A stretch of 64,000 nt of DNA from assembly GCA_009667805.1 (NCBI GenBank), contig CM019064.1, positions 72,910,400 to 72,974,399 of the forward strand, given 5' to 3'. Below the pieces are notes generated by a model. The model had not been told where the DNA came from. It did no database searches and was given only the letters and a program-made list of their open reading frames with translations. The DNA is from Leptobrachium leishanense (taxonomy: Eukaryota; Chordata; Amphibia; Anura; Megophryidae). Position numbers and translations under genes: made by a program. This document shows, in pieces, positions 16,422-64,000 of this stretch; position 1 is the first letter of the stretch; each line of letters opens with the position of its first letter.

Positions 16422-19400
16422 CTATTCTATTACTTCAGCATCAGGGGATTGATAGCTGCTGATCCAGGACTGATTCATTTTTATAATTGTCAGCCGGTCT
16501 ACAGAGTCGGTGGACAGACGCACTCTTTTGTCTGTGACAAAACCTCCAGCGGCACTGAACGTCCTTTCGGAAAGCACGCTAGATGAAGGGCAACCTAGTA
16601 GCTGCATAGCATATTGGCTAAGTTCTGGCCAGTGATCCAATCTCAACACCCAGTAAGCCAGTGGATCATCTGCTGGAAAGGTATCCAGGTCTGCCCTTGC
16701 CCCTAGGTAGTCCTGCACCATATGGTGAAGACGCTGGCAATGGGTGCCTACATTTGACATCCTTGGGTGTCGAGGACTAAAAAAATTTAAAAATGCATCA
16801 GTCAAGTGGCCCTGGCCTTCACCGCTTTTTCTCTGATCACCTGCAGCCTCAGAAGCACGTGTGTCAGCACTTGGTAATCTAACAGTGCCTGGAAAGGTGT
16901 TACACAAGTTTCGCTTTAGAGCGTCCTCAAGTTTTGTCATCCTGTGCTCCCTCTGTGTGAGCAGGATGAGCTCTGTAACTTTCCCCTTGTATCGTGGATC
17001 AAGAAGGGTTGCCAACCAGTAATGATCCCTCTCCTTGATAGCACGAATCCTGGGGTCCTTTAGCAGGCTTTGCATCATTAGGGAGCCCATGCAGCGTAGG
17101 TTGGAGGTGGCATTAGCTGCCGCGTCTTCCTGGTCAATGAGGATGACCGTATCGTGCACTTCCTCCTCCCAGCCACGCACAAGCCCTTCTGTTTCTGGGA
17201 ACACAAAACCCTGCCTTGAGGAATCCCCACCTTCAATGCCCCCACTACTTAAATAGTCCTCCTCCTCCTCATCCTCCTCCTGTCTGATCTGAGTAGGACC
17301 CGCTGGAATGCTGTCTGCGGAAAGACTGGTGCCTTGAGAGCTAGGAAAGGCCTCCTCTTCCTCCCACTGCTCTGCCTCTAGAGCCACATCTATAATTCCC
17401 CGCAGACTGTGCTCCAGCAGGAACACTAAAGGAATTGTGTCACTGATGCATGCACTGTCCCTGCTCACCATCCTCGTTGCCTCCTCAAATGGTGACAGTA
17501 CAGTGCATGCATCCTTGATCAGCCACTGCGAGGGGGAAAAAAAACAAGTTGACCTGAACCTGTCCTTGTGCCATACTCACACAGGTACTCGTTGATGGCC
17601 CTCTGCTGCTTGTGCAGACGCTGCAGCATTGCTAATGTCGAGTTCCACCTGGTGGGCATGTCACAGATCAGACGGTTTGTGGGAAGGTGGAATTCTCTTT
17701 GAATTTCTGCCAGGCGAACGCTTGCTGGGAATGACCGACTGAAGTGGCTGCAGACTTTTCTGGCCTGGATGAGAAGCTCTGGCAGCCCTGGGTACTTGGT
17801 TAAGAAACGCTGTACCACCAGATTTAGGACGTGTTCTAGGCATGGTACATGCGTCAATTTACCCTTGCGTAGGGCGGAGAGAAGGTTGCTGCCATTATCG
17901 CAGACTACCATTCCCAGCTCAAGCTGGCATGGTGTTAACCATCTCTGCACCTGCCCCTGCAGAGCTGACAAAATTTCTGACCCGGTGTGGCTCCTGTCCC
18001 CTAAACAAACCAGCTCAAGCACAGTATGGCATCTTTTTGCTTGAGCCATTGCGTAGACCCTGTCAGGCGTCGGTTTAACTGCCACTTCGCCAGAGACAGA
18101 GGAGGAGGAGGAGGAGGAGGAGGTGGTGGTGGTGGAGCAGACAGACCTCATACAAGCAGCTTTCTGGAGGCGTGGTGGATGAACAAGCTCCAGCACAGAG
18201 CCCCGTCTTGGATCATTCCCAGCTGCAATCAGAGTTACCCAGTGTGCCGTGAAGGAAATGTAACGACCCTGTCCATGCTTGCTGGACCACGTGTCTAAAG
18301 TCACATGCACCTTGCTGCTGACTGCCTTTCCCAATGACTGGATAACATTGTCTTCCACGTGCTGGTATAGTGCTGGAATGGCCTTGTGTGAAAAGTAATG
18401 GCGTTTTGGAACCTGCCACTGTGGTACAGCGCATTCAGCAAATTCACGGAAGGGAGCAGAGTCCACCAGCTGGAAAGGCAGCAGCTGCAATGCGAGTAAT
18501 TTTGCTAAGCTGGCATTTAGACGCTGTGCTTGGGGATGGTTGGGACTATATTTTTTCTTTCACTGCAGCAGCTGCGGCAACGTAATCTGACTGCGTAAAT
18601 CTTCAGATACTGGGATGATGTCACATTGTGAGGAAGGATCTGCTTGTACATCCATTACTGTACCATCATCCCTGTCGGTGGAGGTTGTAGGCAATTGCAT
18701 GGCAGGACATACAGTGTGGGTAGAGACAGATGAGGAGGAGGAGGACCTACGCAAAGTTTTGCCCCAACGGGATGTGTGGCACTTGTTCATATGTCGCCTC
18801 AAGCACGTGGTACCCAAGTGTCTGGTGTTTATCCCACGCTTCAGCCTCCTCTGACATAGATTACAAATAGCATCACTGGGGTCTGCTGCACAGTTCTTAA
18901 AGAACTCCCAGACAGCAGATTTCCTGCATGTGTTCTTTGAGACAACAGCGCTCTGCACCGGAGCAGCTCTGACATGTGATGCCTTGGACTGGCTAGTGCT
19001 ACGGTTGATCACAGAGGATGTTGTGCCTCATGTTTGCTGTGCCTCCTCCTCCTCCCCCTCCTCCTCACTTGATTCCTCAGTTCGATCTGGCACCCAGGTG
19101 GAGTCAGTGACCTCATCATCATCAATGTCATCTTCACCCCCTATCTCCTCGTCACTGGAGCCAACTTGGCAGTATGCTACAGCTGCTGGGGCAACATGAG
19201 TGCCAGTTATTTGTGTGTCATCACTGGCACCCCCTTCCTCTAGGTTGATTATACTCCCTTGCTCAACCTCAGAGATTGAATCAGAGCACTGTACTTGCTG
19301 CGCATCCTCAAGCATTGTAGTCAAACAATTCAGCTGACTCCTCCGTGTGGGATAGCGAGGCTACGGCAGGAGTAGCTGTGGACATGGAGGCTGCATTAGA

Positions 19401-41894: not shown

Positions 41895-42549
41895 ATTGAC
41901 CAACCTAAGATCTATCTTAAAGTAGTTATCATACTCCTCCTCTGAAGACTGTGGGCATGCTGAAAGTTTGCAGGCTGAAGACTGGAGGCCAAGAAAAACC
42001 TGTATATATTGAGAGTGAGCATAAGGGTCTCTCTCAAACAAGGTGCAAATATATGGCCCTGACAATTAACTGGGCCTAACCCACTCAGAAATAAATAAAA
42101 AAAAACACAACACCTAGGAGGAGTAAGAAGACTGCTCCCACACTCCCCTAACTGGCAGGGACATGGTGCCAGATATAATCACAGAATTAGGTAAAGCCCA
42201 CAGACCATGGTCTTTATTGAAAGAAAATAATAAACAGAAATATATCAAAAAACAACCACACACAAAATCTTAAAAGAAAGGTACATATAGGTCAGAAATG
42301 AACCTTCAAATAGGACACTTCCATGGTAGCTTAAAAGTATCTCTTTACACAGAGTGAAAATTCAAAGAGCCACAATACAACATTATATCAGCAGGCCACA
42401 CACATAGAAGCCCATACGTACGCAACATAAATGATGAAACGTGAGAAGCACAGATAGCACAGTAATTACTGTCACAGACCAATTTACTAAGCAGACTAAA
42501 TTACATATTAGTATATAAATGAAGCACAGCACCGCTGCATACCAAGACC
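41895..42549. other. No recognised feature
   Basis: No supported gene or bounded repeat before the minisatellite begins. Confidence 0.4.
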
Positions 42550-44014
42550 ACACTGCCGGGCAGCACCTTTACAGTATAATTAATGCAGCATATGATTCCT
42601 CACACTGCTAGGCAGCACCTTTACAGTATAATTAATGCAGCATATGATTCCTCACACTGCTGGGCAGCACCTTTACAGTATAATTAATGCAGCATATGAT
42701 TCCTCACACTGCCGGGCAGCACCTCTACAGTATAATAATGCAGCATATGATTCCTCACACTGCTGGGCAGCACCTCTACAGTATAATAATGCAGCATATG
42801 ATTCCTCACACTGCTGGGCAGCACCTTTACAGTATAATAATACAGCATATGATTCCTCACACTGCCGGGCAGCACCTCTACAGTATAATAATGCAGCATA
42901 TGATTCCTCACACTGCTGGGCAGCACCTCTACAGTATAATAATGCAGCATATGATTCCTCACACTGCCGGGCAGCACCTCTACAGTATAATAATGCAGCA
43001 TATGATTCCTCACACTGCTGGGCAGCACCTTTACAGTATAATAATGCAGCATATGATTCCTCACACTGCCGGGCAGCACCTCTACAGTATAATAATGCAG
43101 CATATGATTCCTCACACTGCCGGGCAGCACCTTTACAGTATAATAATGCAGCATATAAATCCTCACACTGCTGGGCAGCACCTCTACAGTATAATAATGC
43201 AGCATATGATTCCGCACACTGCTGGGCAGCACCTTTACAGTATAATTAATGCAGCATATGATTCCTCACACTGCCGGGCAGCACCTCTACAGTATAATTA
43301 ATGCAGCATATGATTCCGCACACTGCCGGGCAGCACCTCTACAGTATAATTAATGCAGCATATGAATCCACACCCTGCTGGACAGCATCTCTACAGTATA
43401 ATTAATGCAGCATATGATTCCTCACACTGCTGGGCAGCACCTTTACAGTATAATTAATGCAGCATATGATTCCTCACACTGCCGGGCAGCACCTCTACAG
43501 TATAATTAATGCAGCATATGATTCCGCACACTGCTGGACAGCACCTCTACAGTATAATAATGCAGCATATGATTCCGCACACTGCCGGGCAGCACCTCTA
43601 CAGTATAATTAATGCAGCATATGAATCCACACCCTGCTGGACAGCACCTCTACAGTATAATAATGCAGCATATGATTCCTCACACTGCCGGGCAGCACCT
43701 TTACAGTATAATAATGCAGCATATAAATCCTCACACTGCTGGGCAGCACCTCTACAGTATAATAATGCAGCATATGATTCCTCACACTGCCGGGCAGCAC
43801 CTTTACAGTATAATAATGCAGCATATGAATCCTCACACTGCTGGGCAGCACCTCTACAGTATAATAATGCAGCATATGATTCCTCACACTGCCGGGCAGC
43901 ACCTCTACAGTATAATTAATGTAGCATATGAATCCACACCCTGCTGGACAGCACCTCTACAGTATAATAATGCAGCATATGATTCCGCACACTGCCGGGC
44001 AGCACCTCTACAGT
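42550..44014. repeat. 51/52-bp minisatellite, about 28 units
   Basis: The unit is TGCAGCATATGATTCCTCAC, ACTGCCGGGCAGCACCT and CTACAGTATAATAA. Units with TATAATAAT are 51 bp and those with TATAATTAAT are 52 bp. Variants CTGGG/CCGGG and CTCTAC/CTTTAC alternate, and a distinct variant (GAATCCACACCCTGCTGGAC) recurs near 43362, 43618 and 43925, showing higher-order duplication. Blocks of 51-bp units keep frame, giving long repetitive ORFs on both strands. These are a by-product of a unit length divisible by three, not genes. Ends next to a family B MITE. Confidence 0.97.
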
Positions 44015-48795: not shown

Positions 48796-50414
<1,619 letters not shown>

Positions 50415-50552
50415 TATACACTATACTGCCAAATGTATTTGCTCACCCATCCAAATAATCAGAATCAGGTGTTCCAATCACTTCCATGGCAACAGGTATA
50501 TAAAATCAAGCACCTAGGCATGCAGACTGTTTTTGCAAACATTTGTGAAAGA

Positions 50553-51580
50553 ATGGGTCGCTCTCAGGAGCTCAGTGAATTCCAGTGTGGAACTGTGATA
50601 GGATGCCACCTGTGCAACAAATCCAGTCGTGAAATGTCCTCGCTCCTAAATATTCCACAGTCAAATGTCAGCTGTATTATAAGAACGTGGAAGTGTTTGG
50701 GAACGACAGCAACTCAGCCACGAAGTGGTAGGCCACGTAAATTGACGGAGCAGGGTCAGCGGATGCTGAGGCGCATAATGCGAAGAGGTCGCCAACTTTC
50801 TGCAGAGTCAATCGCTACAGACCTCCAAACTTCGTGTGGCCTTCAGATTAGCTCAAGAACAGTGTGCAGAGAGCTTCATGGAATGGGTTTCCATGGCAGA
50901 GCAGCTGCATCCAAGCAATACATCACCAAGTGCAATGCAAAGCGTCGGATGCAGTGGTGTAAAGCACGCCACCACTGGACTCTAGAGCAGTGGAGACACA
51001 TTCTCTGGAGTGACGAATCGCACTTTTCCATCTGGCAATCTGATGGACGAGTCTGGGTTTGGCGGTTGCCAGGAGAACGGTACTTGTCTGACGGCATTGT
51101 GCCAAGTGTAATGTTTGGTGGAGGGGGGATTATGGTGTGAGGTTGTTTTTCAGGAGCTGGGCTTGGCCCCTTAGTTCCAGTGAAAGGAACTCTAAATGCT
51201 TCAGCATACCAAGACATTCTGGACAATTCCTTGTTCCCAATTTTGTGGGAACAGTTTGGAGCTGGCCCCTTCCTCTTCCAACATGACTGTGCACCAGTGC
51301 ACAAAGCAAGGTCCATAAAGATATGGGTGACAGGGTCTGGTGTGGATGAACTTGACTGGCCTGCACAGAGTCCTGACCTCAACCCGATAGAACATCTTTG
51401 GGATGAATTATAGTGGAGACTGAGAGCCAGGCCTTCTCGTCCAACATCAGTGTGTGACCTAACAAATGTGCTTCTGGAAGAATGGTCAAAAATTCCCATA
51501 AACATACTCCTAAACCTTGTGGACAGCCTTCCCAGAAGAGTTGAAGCTGTTATTGCTGCAAAGGGTGGACCGACATCATA
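50553..51580 (+). pseudogene. Tc1-like transposase, two in-frame stops (family 2, copy B)
   Basis: Starts [17 protein letters not shown]. In a single frame it shows the helix-turn-helix, [60 protein letters not shown] and RRVEAVIAAKGG. TGA at 51138-51140 replaces the Trp of IMVWG; TAG at 51411-51413 replaces the codon after WDEL. No frameshift. The last residues run into the inserted LINE. All catalytic acidic residues remain. Confidence 0.94.
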
Positions 51581-53964
51581 TTTATTTATTTATTTATAAA
51601 GGATTTTACCAGGAAGGATACATTGAGATTTCTCTCATTTTCAATTATGTCCTGGGTTGAAGAACATTGAGTGGTTACAGAAATACAAAATAGTAAAATG
51701 CAAGATATTAACACAAAAACAAATATACAGATTAACAGAAAAATAAATATGTAGGAAATAAAGTCATTATGTTACATGTTTACAGGTGCATGCCGTATTG
51801 AGGTATGTTAATAGGGAACTCTTAAGGGACTTTAGACTGGGGGAAGATTTGATGGTGTCTGGGAGGTTATTCCATATTTGCAGTGCTCTGTTGGAAAATG
51901 AGGATCGAGCCACTTTCTTTTTGTATTGCGGTATTGCAAGTAAGGTGCTGGTCCTAGATCTGAGGTTATAGGATGAGGGAACTGCTGGGGCAATCAGCCT
52001 ATTCAGGTAGGGTGGTAGCTTCCCAGAAAAGCTCTTAAACACCAGGTTGGAAAGGTGAAGGGTGTGTCTAGATTCCAGCGATGGCCAGTTTAGTTCTTTT
52101 AACATGTCACAATGGTGGGTCATGTAGTTACATTGTAGCACAAAACGGCAGAATGAGTTATACAATGTAGTAAGTTTCTGGAGGTGTGTTTGAGGGGCAG
52201 CTGCATACACTACATCTCCGTATTCAATGCTGGCATAAGCATTTGCTGTACAATCTGCTTTCTTACCGCGGGGCTCAGGCAGGATTTGTTTCTGTACAGG
52301 GCACTTAGTTTGGGGTAGAGTTTAGATGAGAGTTTTTCGATGTGGGGGCCAAAAGATAGATTTGGGTCTAACCACATACCTAGATATTTGAGAGAAGTGA
52401 CTGTAGTCAACGTGTCATTTGATCTTGTCCTCACACATAGATGGGGTGTTTGCAATTTGTGTAGTTTAGGTGCGGTTCCAAAGAGCATTGTAACAGTTTT
52501 GTCAGCATTTAGAAAAAGTTTGTTATCTGTGATCAACTTTTCTACCCCTTTGAATTGTTCTTGCAGCACGGCCTCCAGCTGCAGGAGATTTGGTTGGCTG
52601 GTATAGATTACAGTGTCGTCTGCATACATGTGTACAGTTGAGGCTTTGCAGACATTGGGCAGATCATTTATGAATATTGTGAATAGCAGGGGGCCGAGTA
52701 TCGAGCCTTGGGGTACACCGCACGTGACTGGGAGGGGAAGGGAAGTGCTGTCAGAAATGGACATATATTGCAACCGATCAGACACCTATGATTGGAACCA
52801 GGTTAGCGTGCTATCACCAATACCAGAGTTTTTAAGTTTTTGTAATAGGATGCACTGGTCTACAGTGTCAAAGGCCTTGGCAAAATCAAGGAAGATGGCT
52901 CCAGTTAGGTTTCCTTGTTCCATGCCCGCTTGGATATCATTACAAACTTTTAAAAGGGCAGTTGCAGTTGAATGATTTGGACGAAAGCCTGATTGATCTG
53001 GGGTTAAATAGTTCCGATACTGATAAAAATCACATAATTGAGTGTAGACACATTTTTCCAGAATTTTTGACATTACAGGGAGCAATGATATTGGACGGTA
53101 GTTGGAGACCAAAGTACTGTCACCACTTTTATGGATAGGTACCACTCTCGCAGTCTTCCAGAGTTTGGGTATGTATCCAGTCGCCAGTGATTCATTGATT
53201 AGGTTTGCGACAGGTTTTGCAATTGCTGGCGCACTGATTTTCAGCAGCATTGCCGGGATTTGGTCAGGTCCAGACTGGTATTTCATTTTTTTGGTTACGG
53301 AGAAGTTTAGTGATGACACTGACAGGCACTGGTCTAAAACTGAATTTCTCTGCATTACAGGGTCTTTGCGCAGTTGGTGGGGCCTGACCTGTGTGCGGCC
53401 TTTCTGATTGCGTGTCGTTTCCTAGCTTAGCAATCAGGGTGGTGGCGCATCCAACAAAATAATTATTAAAAGCATTTGCTACATCTAGGGGGTGTTGTAC
53501 AGTTTGGTTGTTTACTATGACAGCAGCCGGTTGGGAGTGGATGGGAGGTGCTTGCATGTTACTTATGGTTTTCCAAAAATTTCTAGGGTTTTATATGTTA
53601 TTGTTTAAATTTTCATTGAAGTATTGGGCTTTAGCCATTTTTGATTGTTTTGTGCAGGCATTCCGGTGTTTTCGGTATTCACAGTGATCGTTCATGGATC
53701 CAGTACTCTTGAAATTTGACCACAGGGAGTCTCTATACTGGTACATATGCGTGAGGTCAGCTGTAACCCAGGGGAGGTGGGCCCCTTTTACTCACACTTT
53801 GTGGAGTGGGTTATGGGTGTTCCAGACTTTCAGGAGCTCGGATTGAAAGTAATCAATTGCACAGTCCAGGTCTGGGATTAGGTTTAGTCTGTACCATGGG
53901 AGCTGTTTGAGATCATTTAGGAAGGATTCAAGATTAAATTTCTTGAAAGACCTGGTGATTATTA
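51581..53964 (-). mobile_element. Rex1/CR1-like LINE, 5'-truncated
   Basis: A non-LTR retrotransposon on the minus strand. Its 3' end is at 51581 with an (AAAT)n tail preceded by AATCTCAATGTATCCTTCC. It carries the RT and C-terminal part of ORF2 but no endonuclease, so the 5' part was lost. Its 3' tail is shared with the SINEs at 9.5, 22.4 and 37.4 kb and with short LINE ends at 13.0, 23.6 and 57.1 kb. Inserted in a Tc1 element. Confidence 0.92.
51767..53950 (-). pseudogene. Rex1/CR1-like reverse transcriptase, broken
   Basis: Motifs in order: YRDSLWSNFKSTGSMNDH and NPRNFWKTISNM (53780-53560); SGPDQIPAMLLK; ARVVPIHKSGD then NYRPISLLP; DQSGFRPNHSTATALL; AIFLDFAKAFDTVD (catalytic Asp); GVPQGSILGPLLF; MYADDTVIY (catalytic YADD); KTVTMLFG; LKYLGMWLD; and the C-terminal YAAAPQTHL, LNWPSLESRHTLH and RALQIWNNLP (to 51767). 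Lesions: stop near 53590, frameshift near 53300-53355, TAG at 52786-52788, and a 1-nt frameshift near 52210-52240. The catalytic FAKAFD and YADD residues are intact. Rex1/CR1 placement is from overall motif style and not from a tree. Confidence 0.88.
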
Positions 53965-61684: not shown

Positions 61685-63189
61685 AGAACACTTGCACAGA
61701 GACAAGGAGCAGCTAGGAGGGCAATAGGGAATAAGCAGCCTGCAGATTCGTGCAATTTACCTTATGCTGAGTGGCCTTATGGGCAGTATAGTGGCCAGCT
61801 GCTACATTAGGAAACTGGTCTCAAATAATTAGGGAAGGTGCCAGCAGTTCTTCACCTCCTGACCCCTGTGGGTGGTGCTACCACCTGATTGCAGGCAGCA
61901 CAGGGAGTTTTGTATTAGGCTCATGCTTTAGTGTCTGACAGTCAGAGCCTCCTGCTACAAAAGGAAAGGTATTGTAACCGGAATCCACTTGGTTCACTCG
62001 GGACGAGGCCGGACCGGACACAAGCAAGGATTGTCTGAACACGAGTCTCTTCAGGAAAGGCAAACTTTATTGTGATATCACAACAGATGCTCAAACAGGA
62101 TTCAATCGCAAAGAATGAGCCCCGAGTCCCTCGTGACATCCAATCTTATACCCCAAATACATAATTAGGTACATCCCAATTAGCCCACCTCCCGATGACA
62201 CTCTCCCACCTCACGTGGGTTAATACCTCCCTTAACCTAATACAAAGACATTCCATTACTTGGCCGTAAATTGGCAAACTTTATGTTAGTTTCAGTGAGT
62301 CATGATTAGTTGCTTTTCCCATCCTGGGCTGCGCCCTCCTCCTTTGCTCCTACAATCACTTGTTACAGCTAACACCTGGTCTGATCTCTATGCTCCTTTG
62401 TCTCTCAGCGGGCCTCAACGACCTAGGTGAATCTACTCCTCTTTCTGCCCTTCCGTCCCAGGAACAGCCTAGACCTTTCTCAAACTTCTAATTACTTTTT
62501 CTGCTAATCTAACACATTCCTAAATTTCTACGTATGCCTCATTCTAGTTTCAACTAAAGCTTGCCTAGTTATTTTCAAGTGAACCAATATTCTGAACAAG
62601 ATGGTCGCCTGGCTTGTAATGGTGGCCATCTTCCAGCCTATTTCCACTTCAGTATCACTGCTATCTGCAAGAGCCCAGCTGTCTGCAGGGGTTAATGATA
62701 ATCTCCCAGAACATGGTCCACCTGGTATCTGCAGAGTCGTGGAGACCAAGGAGGAAAGGAAAGTCCATGCCCTGTAAAAACAAGCAAACCTCACAGGTAC
62801 ATGGTGCAAGGGTTGTGCTGTTCTTCATTAAGGCACCAAGTAGTACATCTCATCTGAATACTGTGAGCTGCAGCCAGGGGTGTCCAGTGCTTGTATTTAC
62901 CCTCGGAGGAAAGAGTGTGAGCCCAGGAGAGCAGGGGAAAGCTAGAAATCAAAGGCTTGGTCCATCTATTTCTAAAGACACAGCACACTAATACTGACAT
63001 TACTATCACTGTCCAGCAGCTCTGTGTGTAAACCATGTAAAGATCATTCATAACATACAGAGCCAACTCACACTACTATCACTCTCAGGCAGAGCTCAGA
63101 GTGTGTGTTTCAACAGCACAGAGCCCACTCCAACTCCCAGCACTAAAAGCACTTATAAAGATATAGAAATTTCATTAATAAAAAAAAAA

Positions 63190-63430
63190 TTGCACTCCCT
63201 ATACTTAACATGGGGAGCGCAAAGTCCTAACGCTAATTACACTCCATTGTGGCTACTTAAAAGTTACCCACAGCTAGACGCTGGTGCTAACTCATGCTTC
63301 TTCTGCAGAATCAGCACCAGCTGGAACCCCGCCAAAAATCACATACTTGCCTCTCATCTCACAGTGCAAAAGGTGGTCCGATCCACTGCTTCTGGTCATG
63401 GGCAGCATCCAGGAGCTTAGCACTGCACCA
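63190..63430 (+). repeat. Dispersed repeat (family F)
   Basis: CTATACTTAACATGGGGAGC, GACGCTGGTGCTAACT, CAGAATCAGCACCAGCTGGA and GTGGTCCGATCCACTGCTTC. Its complement is at 59270-59750 and a direct fragment at 34970-35260. Class unknown. Confidence 0.65.
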
Positions 63431-63755
63431 CTGGTCGTAGACTCTGATTTTTAAAATTATGTGGGGGGGGGCACAATTTTCTGTTTTTGCCTCGGGTGCA
63501 AAAGGCGCTAGCTACAGCTCTGAACACGGCTTATCACATTTACACTAGAGTATATATATATATAGGGTTCCTTGCTGCATATGGGGAATGTGGCACAGGA
63601 ACTCTGGGATGCAATTCATTGAATTGCTGTGATGTGCAAGTGGCTTCTGCATTAATAAACACACTTACTATAGTGTGGAGGCTTTTTATCTCACTTTTAG
63701 TCCTTCACCACAACCCTTGTAGACACTAATTTACCCTACGGTCCAAGCATCCACT

Positions 63756-63840
63756 GCAACTGGTCATGCCTACCTCCTAGCTGATGAGGGTTCAACAAAC
63801 CCGAAACAGCGTTGTCCTAGGAGTGGTTTTGACCAGTTGC
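63756..63840 (+). ncRNA. Type I hammerhead ribozyme, complete core
   Basis: Self-cleaving RNA motif. Stem I: GCAACTGGTCA with TGACCAGTTGC (11 bp) and CTCCTAG with CTAGGAG (7 bp), separated by an internal loop of 7 and 6 nt. Core CTGATGA at 63781-63787. Stem II GGGTT/AACCC with loop CAACA. GAAA at 63803-63806. Stem III ACA/TGT with loop GCGT. Cleavage predicted after GTC, between 63816 and 63817. All invariant core positions (CUGANGA, GAA, A15.1-U16.1, H17 = C) are present. The very short stem III matches the amphibian satellite type, which tends to work best as a dimer or with stem I-II loop contacts. Activity is not shown here. Confidence 0.93.
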
Positions 63841-63941
63841 ATAAACTTTATCTCTGCTACAAAGCCACGGTGTGGCATAGCATTGATTTTAGGGTTCTGT
63901 GTATTAACAGATCTAGGATGCATAAAAGTGAGACAGAGGTC

Positions 63942-63949
63942 ATTTGCAT
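63942..63949 (+). promoter_or_regulatory. Octamer motif ATTTGCAT in hammerhead repeat
   Basis: Same position in the unit as at 370-377; conserved between the two copies despite divergence around it. Candidate distal element for snRNA-type transcription of the array. Confidence 0.45.
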
Positions 63950-64000
63950 ATCCTACCCAGGGTTCCTTGCTGCATATGAGGAATGTGGCACAGGAACTCT

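Follow-up and report, generated by a model that had tools for sequence, protein, structure and literature searches.

A dispersed hammerhead retrozyme of Leptobrachium leishanense with insertion anatomy pointing to Penelope-type mobilization

We present here a hammerhead-bearing element at the right end of a 64,000-nt stretch of the Leptobrachium leishanense genome (GenBank assembly GCA_009667805.1, contig CM019064.1, forward-strand positions 72,910,400 to 72,974,399), hereafter the window. We read it as a single insertion from a retrozyme family that is non-autonomous and apparently non-coding, spread by the Penelope-like element (PLE)-type cycle proposed below, a reading to which we assign a probability of about 0.75. 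The element is an ordinary-looking, well-preserved animal non-LTR retrozyme that forms no array, and its anatomy points to PLE-type mobilization. The family is dispersed, and its copies carry a type I hammerhead, end in two preferred 3′ zones, lie at (TA)n targets, have ragged 5′ ends, and occur in head-to-head pairs.

The element and its hammerhead

A (TA)n run at 63551 to 63564, the probable target, lies 5′ of the element. It is followed on the plus strand by a full 395-bp unit at 63565 to 63959 (unit positions 1 to 395, from repeat alignment; GC content, 44.3%) and by positions 1 to 41 of a second unit at 63960 to 64000. The 395-bp period given in the initial annotation of this DNA is real, with 63564 to 63605 matching 63959 to 64000 at 98% over 42 nt and a spacing of 395. 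The tandem array claimed there does not hold up: when the sequence was extended rightward past the window edge, the second unit continued at 99% identity to unit position 166 (L009, 1960 to 2125) and then stopped at the second of the two preferred 3′ sites, adjoining (TA)n. An inverted copy begins six bases past the element end, tail to tail across the (TA)n. The plus-strand element therefore measures 395 + 166 = 561 bp, or 1.42 units, with a single hammerhead, so that the locus alone should release no 395-nt monomer; in place of the 395-nt monomers previously expected on transcription, this copy would give one cut. Long head-to-tail arrays, the mark of a satellite, were not found, with 1.42 units here and a longest sampled arm of 894 bp. 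Of the newt-satellite or retrozyme class proposed earlier, the type I hammerhead in a 395-bp repeat is retained and the satellite array is replaced by dispersed insertions.

The hammerhead lies at 63755 to 63841 on the plus strand and is identified from sequence, pairing, fold, and a sub-threshold Rfam match. All core bases and three stems are present, confirming a ribozyme that had been placed at 63756 to 63840. The core comprises CTGATGA (63781 to 63787) and GAAA (63803 to 63806). Stem II pairs 63788 to 63792 with 63798 to 63802 (5 bp), and stem III pairs 63806 to 63808 with 63813 to 63815 (3 bp; stem and loop ACAGCGTTGT, 63806 to 63815, from sequence and family alignment). Stem I has two parts, a proximal one pairing 63774 to 63780 with 63817 to 63823 (7 bp) and a distal one pairing 63755 to 63766 with 63830 to 63841 (12 bp, 100% complementarity), for a count of 19 bp rather than the 18 bp stated before. 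The last base of the GTC cleavage triplet is C17 at 63816, and the known hammerhead mechanism predicts self-cleavage between it and C at 63817. The fold of 63756 to 63840 reaches −40 kcal/mol (z, −6.1; as low in 0 of 200 shuffles), and its minimum-energy form keeps stems I and II while pairing the stem III bases otherwise.

A scan of the whole window with Rfam at the gathering threshold gave 0 matches. With an E-value threshold, positions 62800 to 64000 gave a match to RF02275 (Hammerhead_HH9) of 23.4 bits (E = 0.0044) over model positions 1 to 77 of 77, which lies below the gathering score of 52 that defines membership in RF02275; the covariance-model check suggested earlier thus finds the motif below threshold only. 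HH9, known from an intron of C10orf118 in amniotes, was likewise the best Rfam match of four other copies and so of 5/5 sequences, at full model length but at 19.9 to 26.3 bits, far below 52. Besides its type I hammerhead, complete in core bases and in all three stems, the element has other marks of a retrozyme: a unit of 395 bp (range, 150 to 450), GC content of 44.3%, no LTR, and multiple copies (3,155 core matches).

The window holds a second, older copy at 179 to 545 on the plus strand, overlooked in the initial annotation along with the insertion signature. It consists of unit positions 187 to 392 (93% identity) followed by 4 to 157 (89%), with its 3′ end at zone 2 adjoining TATATATATA. 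Its hammerhead is probably dead because G5 of the core is changed to A at 211, giving CTAATGA. Other features of the window are Tc1/mariner transposase fragments at 865 to 1566 (−), 49266 to 50060 (−), and 50394 to 51140 (+), with matches to HTH_Tnp_Tc3_2, DDE_3, and the Sleeping Beauty HTH; the C-terminal region of a hAT transposase at 16422 to 17576 (−), beside a frame at 17519 to 18559 that has no Pfam match; a reverse transcriptase fragment (RVT_1) at 52786 to 53421 (−; E, 2.5e-14); and a 51-bp tandem repeat at 42549 to 44014 (28.5 copies, 93% matches).

Insertion anatomy and template across the family

Searched across the 3.54-Gb assembly with up to 2 mismatches allowed, a 31-base core pattern matched 3,155 times; a second pattern, of 32 bases and lying downstream of the cleavage site, matched 3,715 times when no more than 1 mismatch was allowed. 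The reversed form of each pattern gave 0 matches. The copies are scattered over many contigs. Three sets of loci were sampled: 20 regions (L009 to L028) plus L003, chosen for long matches; 27 of 30 returned loci, chosen by identity to unit positions 25 to 98, with two excluded as the window itself (L059 and L060) and one as a repeat of L017 (L063); and 20 of 100 places listed on one contig, chosen by an exact match at unit positions 258 to 289. This selection biases lengths, 5′ ends, and conservation, and the selected columns were excluded from conservation tests. The insertions sampled, at 68 loci, are single and dispersed and measure about 60 to 890 bp. Nearest-neighbor identity among them has a median of 96.0% and a best value of 97.5% (74 arms of at least 250 bp), so these are not very recent insertions.

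The unit was mapped on the 68 loci as 113 arms, 108 of them with a readable 3′ end. Two zones covering 68 of the 395 unit positions hold 91 of the 108 3′ ends, and 17 lie outside both. Zone 1 (unit 90 to 116; 63654 to 63680 in the window) holds 46, which a base-by-base reading shows ending in AATAAACAC(AC). Zone 2 (unit 140 to 180; 63704 to 63744) holds 45, ending in GTAGACACTA. Between the two preferred ends the family alignment places an AC-rich hairpin, CACACT-TACTAT-AGTGTG in the window copy (63660 to 63677) and CACACT-TATTAT-AGTGTG, with variants, in the family. We infer that zone 1 marks a first internal start of reverse transcription and zone 2 a second, the latter being the one used by the window copy in its next unit.

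An alternating TA run of at least 8 adjoins 66 of the 108 3′ ends, compared with 2 of 95 control stretches taken 150 bp downstream and 17 of 1,703 40-mers from the window. In the 5′ flank of single arms (TA)n was found in 20/55 cases versus 4/48 controls, and the 5′ ends themselves are ragged. Arms meet at their 5′ ends, head to head, at 25 of the 68 loci; with arms of at least 60 bp the number is 23, and canonical 3′ ends lie on both outer sides at 18 of these. Tail-to-tail loci number 5 of 68. This insertion anatomy matches the PLE signature and supports PLE-type mobilization. In one arm among the 108 (L093, 183 to 273, −), the 3′ end coincides exactly with unit 252, where the hammerhead would cleave, as though copying had begun at the end of a cleaved RNA.

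The arms also bear on the form of the template. Over a third of them (34/90) span more than a full unit. Of the 66 that reach the cleavage site, only 3 stop there (unit 250 to 256); most templates were therefore joined at that site, as a circle or an uncut multimer, which are alike in sequence. In the third sample all 22 arms cross it. Cleaved RNA as the main template, which a peak of 5′ ends at the cleavage site would have indicated, was rejected on the basis of those 3/66 arms plus the L079 arm, which lacks a canonical 3′ end. At least 4 of the 68 loci (L011, L013, L024, and L072) carry a pair of hammerhead regions separated by one unit on a single strand, a lower bound given that many sampled regions are short. 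L011 has two full tandem units at the 395 period (a dimer plus tail). Both cores are intact in L024 only, and source loci capable of yielding monomers should therefore be a small minority.

The hammerhead core is intact in 45 of 63 aligned family copies and broken in 18. Its minor-allele frequency is 1.9% versus 6.1% for the rest of the unit (p = 0.0014); conservation of the hammerhead as a whole was not significant (p = 0.12). Covariation in the hammerhead stems was no better than in shuffles, with 94.8% of cells paired in each and 2 stem pairs changed on both sides versus 1.3 in shuffles. The commonest stem III and loop, ACAGCGCTGT, occurs in 44 of 63 copies and is a perfect palindrome, and for this reason cleavage would probably be best in the dimer. 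A dimeric mode has been reported for amphibian hammerhead motifs, which the palindromic stem III fits (PMC7229834). The circular 395-nt monomer is predicted to be rod-like, at −151 kcal/mol versus −103 (standard deviation, 5.2) in shuffles (as low in 0 of 60), and circular folds of 7 other units gave z-scores of −5.5 to −9.3 against simpler shuffles.

The octamer ATTTGCAT at 63942 to 63949 (+) is conserved in the family, with a minor-allele frequency of 1.8% versus 6.1% (p = 0.004), and is the third least variable of 229 8-mers, although low-variation windows near it adjoin the region used to select one sample and may be partly biased. We take it to be an Oct-1/DSE-like motif, and a promoter role for it would be a guess. 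Newt satellite 2 has an snRNA-type promoter, of which our literature search found no account. A promoter of this type was considered for the present unit and rejected: the octamer is conserved and the PSE-like stretch at unit 139 to 158 is not.

Comparison with Penelope-like elements and rival explanations

The closest parallel to this anatomy is PAc, a PLE of the anole. In PAc, an AC-rich stem-loop is described as containing two adjacent internal sites at which reverse transcription starts; the segment from one start to the other makes up an optional genomic "tail," targets are AT rich, and the two target strands are each cut and then extended (PMC11167929). Hammerhead mutants of PAc had no effect on insertion in vitro, which is evidence against a needed role for cleavage, and the PAc study regarded unprocessed RNA as the main substrate (PMC11167929). 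Like PAc, the retrozyme has two 3′ ends that are internal and placed at an AC-rich stem-loop, lies at AT-rich targets, shows apparent both-strand priming, and carries a type I hammerhead, which in PAc is part of the leader; the retrozyme differs in having no coding sequence for reverse transcriptase or GIY-YIG, in a hammerhead with a proper stem III, and in 3′ ends that lie about 240 to 305 nt downstream of the cleavage site. In rotifer Penelopes, a tail of 31 bp may be present or absent, inverted copies are most often head to head, and palindromes occur at the junction; their pseudo-LTRs (pLTRs) have been argued to mobilize other sequence in trans (PMC3846280). The family thus has the features of PLE machinery, namely two internal 3′ ends, an AT-rich target, and head-to-head inverted copies. 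A 395-bp unit without a reverse transcriptase plus GIY-YIG open reading frame (ORF) is not itself a PLE.

PLEs are present in the genome, where a GIY-YIG profile search gave at least 49 matches (150 of 1,534 candidates scored). Reverse transcriptase and GIY-YIG occur together in two of three frames tested, with both over the cutoff in L051 and reverse transcriptase under it in L034. In one PLE leader family, every pair of copies lying within 6 kb on opposite strands (13/13) has a head-to-head arrangement. At least 8 copies of this leader (query L057:1-460:−) start at query 146 to 158, just upstream of the hammerhead, perhaps at the transcript start. An apparent pair of 3′ ends in one PLE family was rejected as alignment drop-off, and neither paired 3′ ends nor (TA)n targeting was established for the PLEs of this genome. 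A responsible PLE partner carrying unit sequence was not found in the sampled PLE loci: when the unit was compared by blastn with 30 GIY-YIG loci among the matches listed, the one match was at chance level (E, 1.2), and the unit tail region scored 18.5 against PLE loci, the same as its reversed control (18.5). Truncated PLE ORFs lacking their 5′ parts lie about 150 bp from retrozyme copies at L010 (21 to 1609, −) and L082 (203 to 1051, −), with (TA)n between.

Such neighbors raise the question of whether the unit is the pLTR or leader of a PLE in which the coding part has been lost or has become rare, forming a family of solo pLTRs and no independent retrozyme. Type I hammerheads in PLE leaders and solo pLTRs are both described (PMC3846280, PMC11167929), some retrozyme copies have a PLE ORF fragment no more than 1.5 kb away (L010 and L082, with L020 as a weaker case), and the unit with its hammerhead is spanned by a stop-free stretch of 133 codons (63565 to 63959, unit 159 round to 162), a length reached in 4 of 500 shuffles. 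The (TA)n between ORF and retrozyme copy in L010 and L082 leads us to read these as separate insertions, however. Among the matches listed, 17 of 30 PLE loci have, by pattern match, a hammerhead of the minimal type, in which stem III is much shorter than in the canonical hammerhead of the unit. No Pfam domain matches the stop-free stretch, even with the E-value limit relaxed to 10; among 12 other units compared, 5 have it at 133 codons or more, and in 6 it is interrupted (81 to 112 codons). On balance the solo-pLTR origin seems unlikely.

We judge it less likely still that a LINE-type reverse transcriptase (APE or other) moves the retrozyme, with (TA)n as a target preference and the inverted copies as products of twin priming. 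LINE copying begins at the RNA 3′ end, usually at poly(A) or a 3′ repeat, and LINE twin priming is known to invert the 5′ part only. The retrozyme copies have no poly(A), their two internal ends flank a hairpin, and the inverted pairs keep full 3′ ends on both outer sides at 18 of 23 loci. In favor of this rival, LINEs are present in the genome (as in the fragment at 52786 to 53421), and a 15-bp TSD of Nematostella repeats has been read as LINE-like (PMC4918200). Spread as satellite DNA, through unequal exchange and extrachromosomal circles with the ribozyme incidental, as was once thought for newt satellite 2, is highly improbable here: tandem units at an equal period do exist (two full units in L011), but copies lie on many contigs and mostly span about 0.2 to 2.3 units, 3′ ends fixed in two zones, with 5′ ends that are ragged, would not be expected from DNA amplification, and the hammerhead core is more conserved than the rest of the unit.

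A proposed cycle and its relation to known systems

In the PLE-type cycle that we favor, the few loci that contain at least two units would give rise to multimeric RNA, which the type I hammerhead would cut, probably best as a dimer; a host ligase would then close the 395-nt monomers into circles. A PLE-type reverse transcriptase with a GIY-YIG endonuclease would cut a (TA)n site, begin copying inside the RNA at one of the two sites flanking the AC-rich hairpin, and run along the template for 0.2 to 2.3 units; extension of both target strands would leave two copies joined head to head. We infer the cleavage, the circles, the PLE enzyme, and the both-strand priming from the family anatomy. Taken in its full form, with the retrozyme as a SINE of Penelope elements whose PLE-type enzyme primes at the two hairpin-flanking sites, on both (TA)n strands, from a circular template, we give the scheme an even chance.

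Among amphibian repeats, the element resembles the 350-bp repeat with HHR_Amex2 of the axolotl, as described in PMC7229834, in its type I hammerhead, unit of 150 to 450 bp, GC content below 50%, absence of an LTR, apparent absence of coding sequence, two-pair stem III under a tetraloop, and predicted stable self-paired circle; stem III of the unit has two pairs plus A15.1-U16.1 under the tetraloop, in the manner described for the axolotl motif (PMC7229834). It differs in being dispersed, mostly as 0.2 to 2.3 units, whereas the axolotl repeat forms long arrays, and in three features that do not figure in that description (PMC7229834): 3′ ends fixed in two zones, targets of (TA)n, and pairs joined head to head. 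With newt satellite 2 (Epstein and Gall 1987) it shares an amphibian hammerhead of type I whose stem I is extended and whose stem III is prone to dimerize, a likeness of description; the newt repeat is of about 330 bp, and the element is an interspersed one of 395 bp. The repeat hammerheads of Xenopus tropicalis (Perreault 2011, PMC3088659) are near in kind, again by description.

PLEs have been proposed as the movers of animal retrozymes on the basis of shared hammerheads, tandem copies, and co-occurrence (PMC7229834, PMC7761336). Our search of the literature from 2020 on found none joining retrozyme, Penelope, and target-primed reverse transcription, and we make no claim of first publication for the signature. 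What the family offers through its 3′ ends is a concrete signature, indicating which 60 to 70 nt of the RNA a reverse transcriptase should recognize. An origin from an amphibian repeat has been proposed for the amniote intron ribozymes HH9 and HH10 (PMC3088659), and the present family is a live relative that bears on that proposal.
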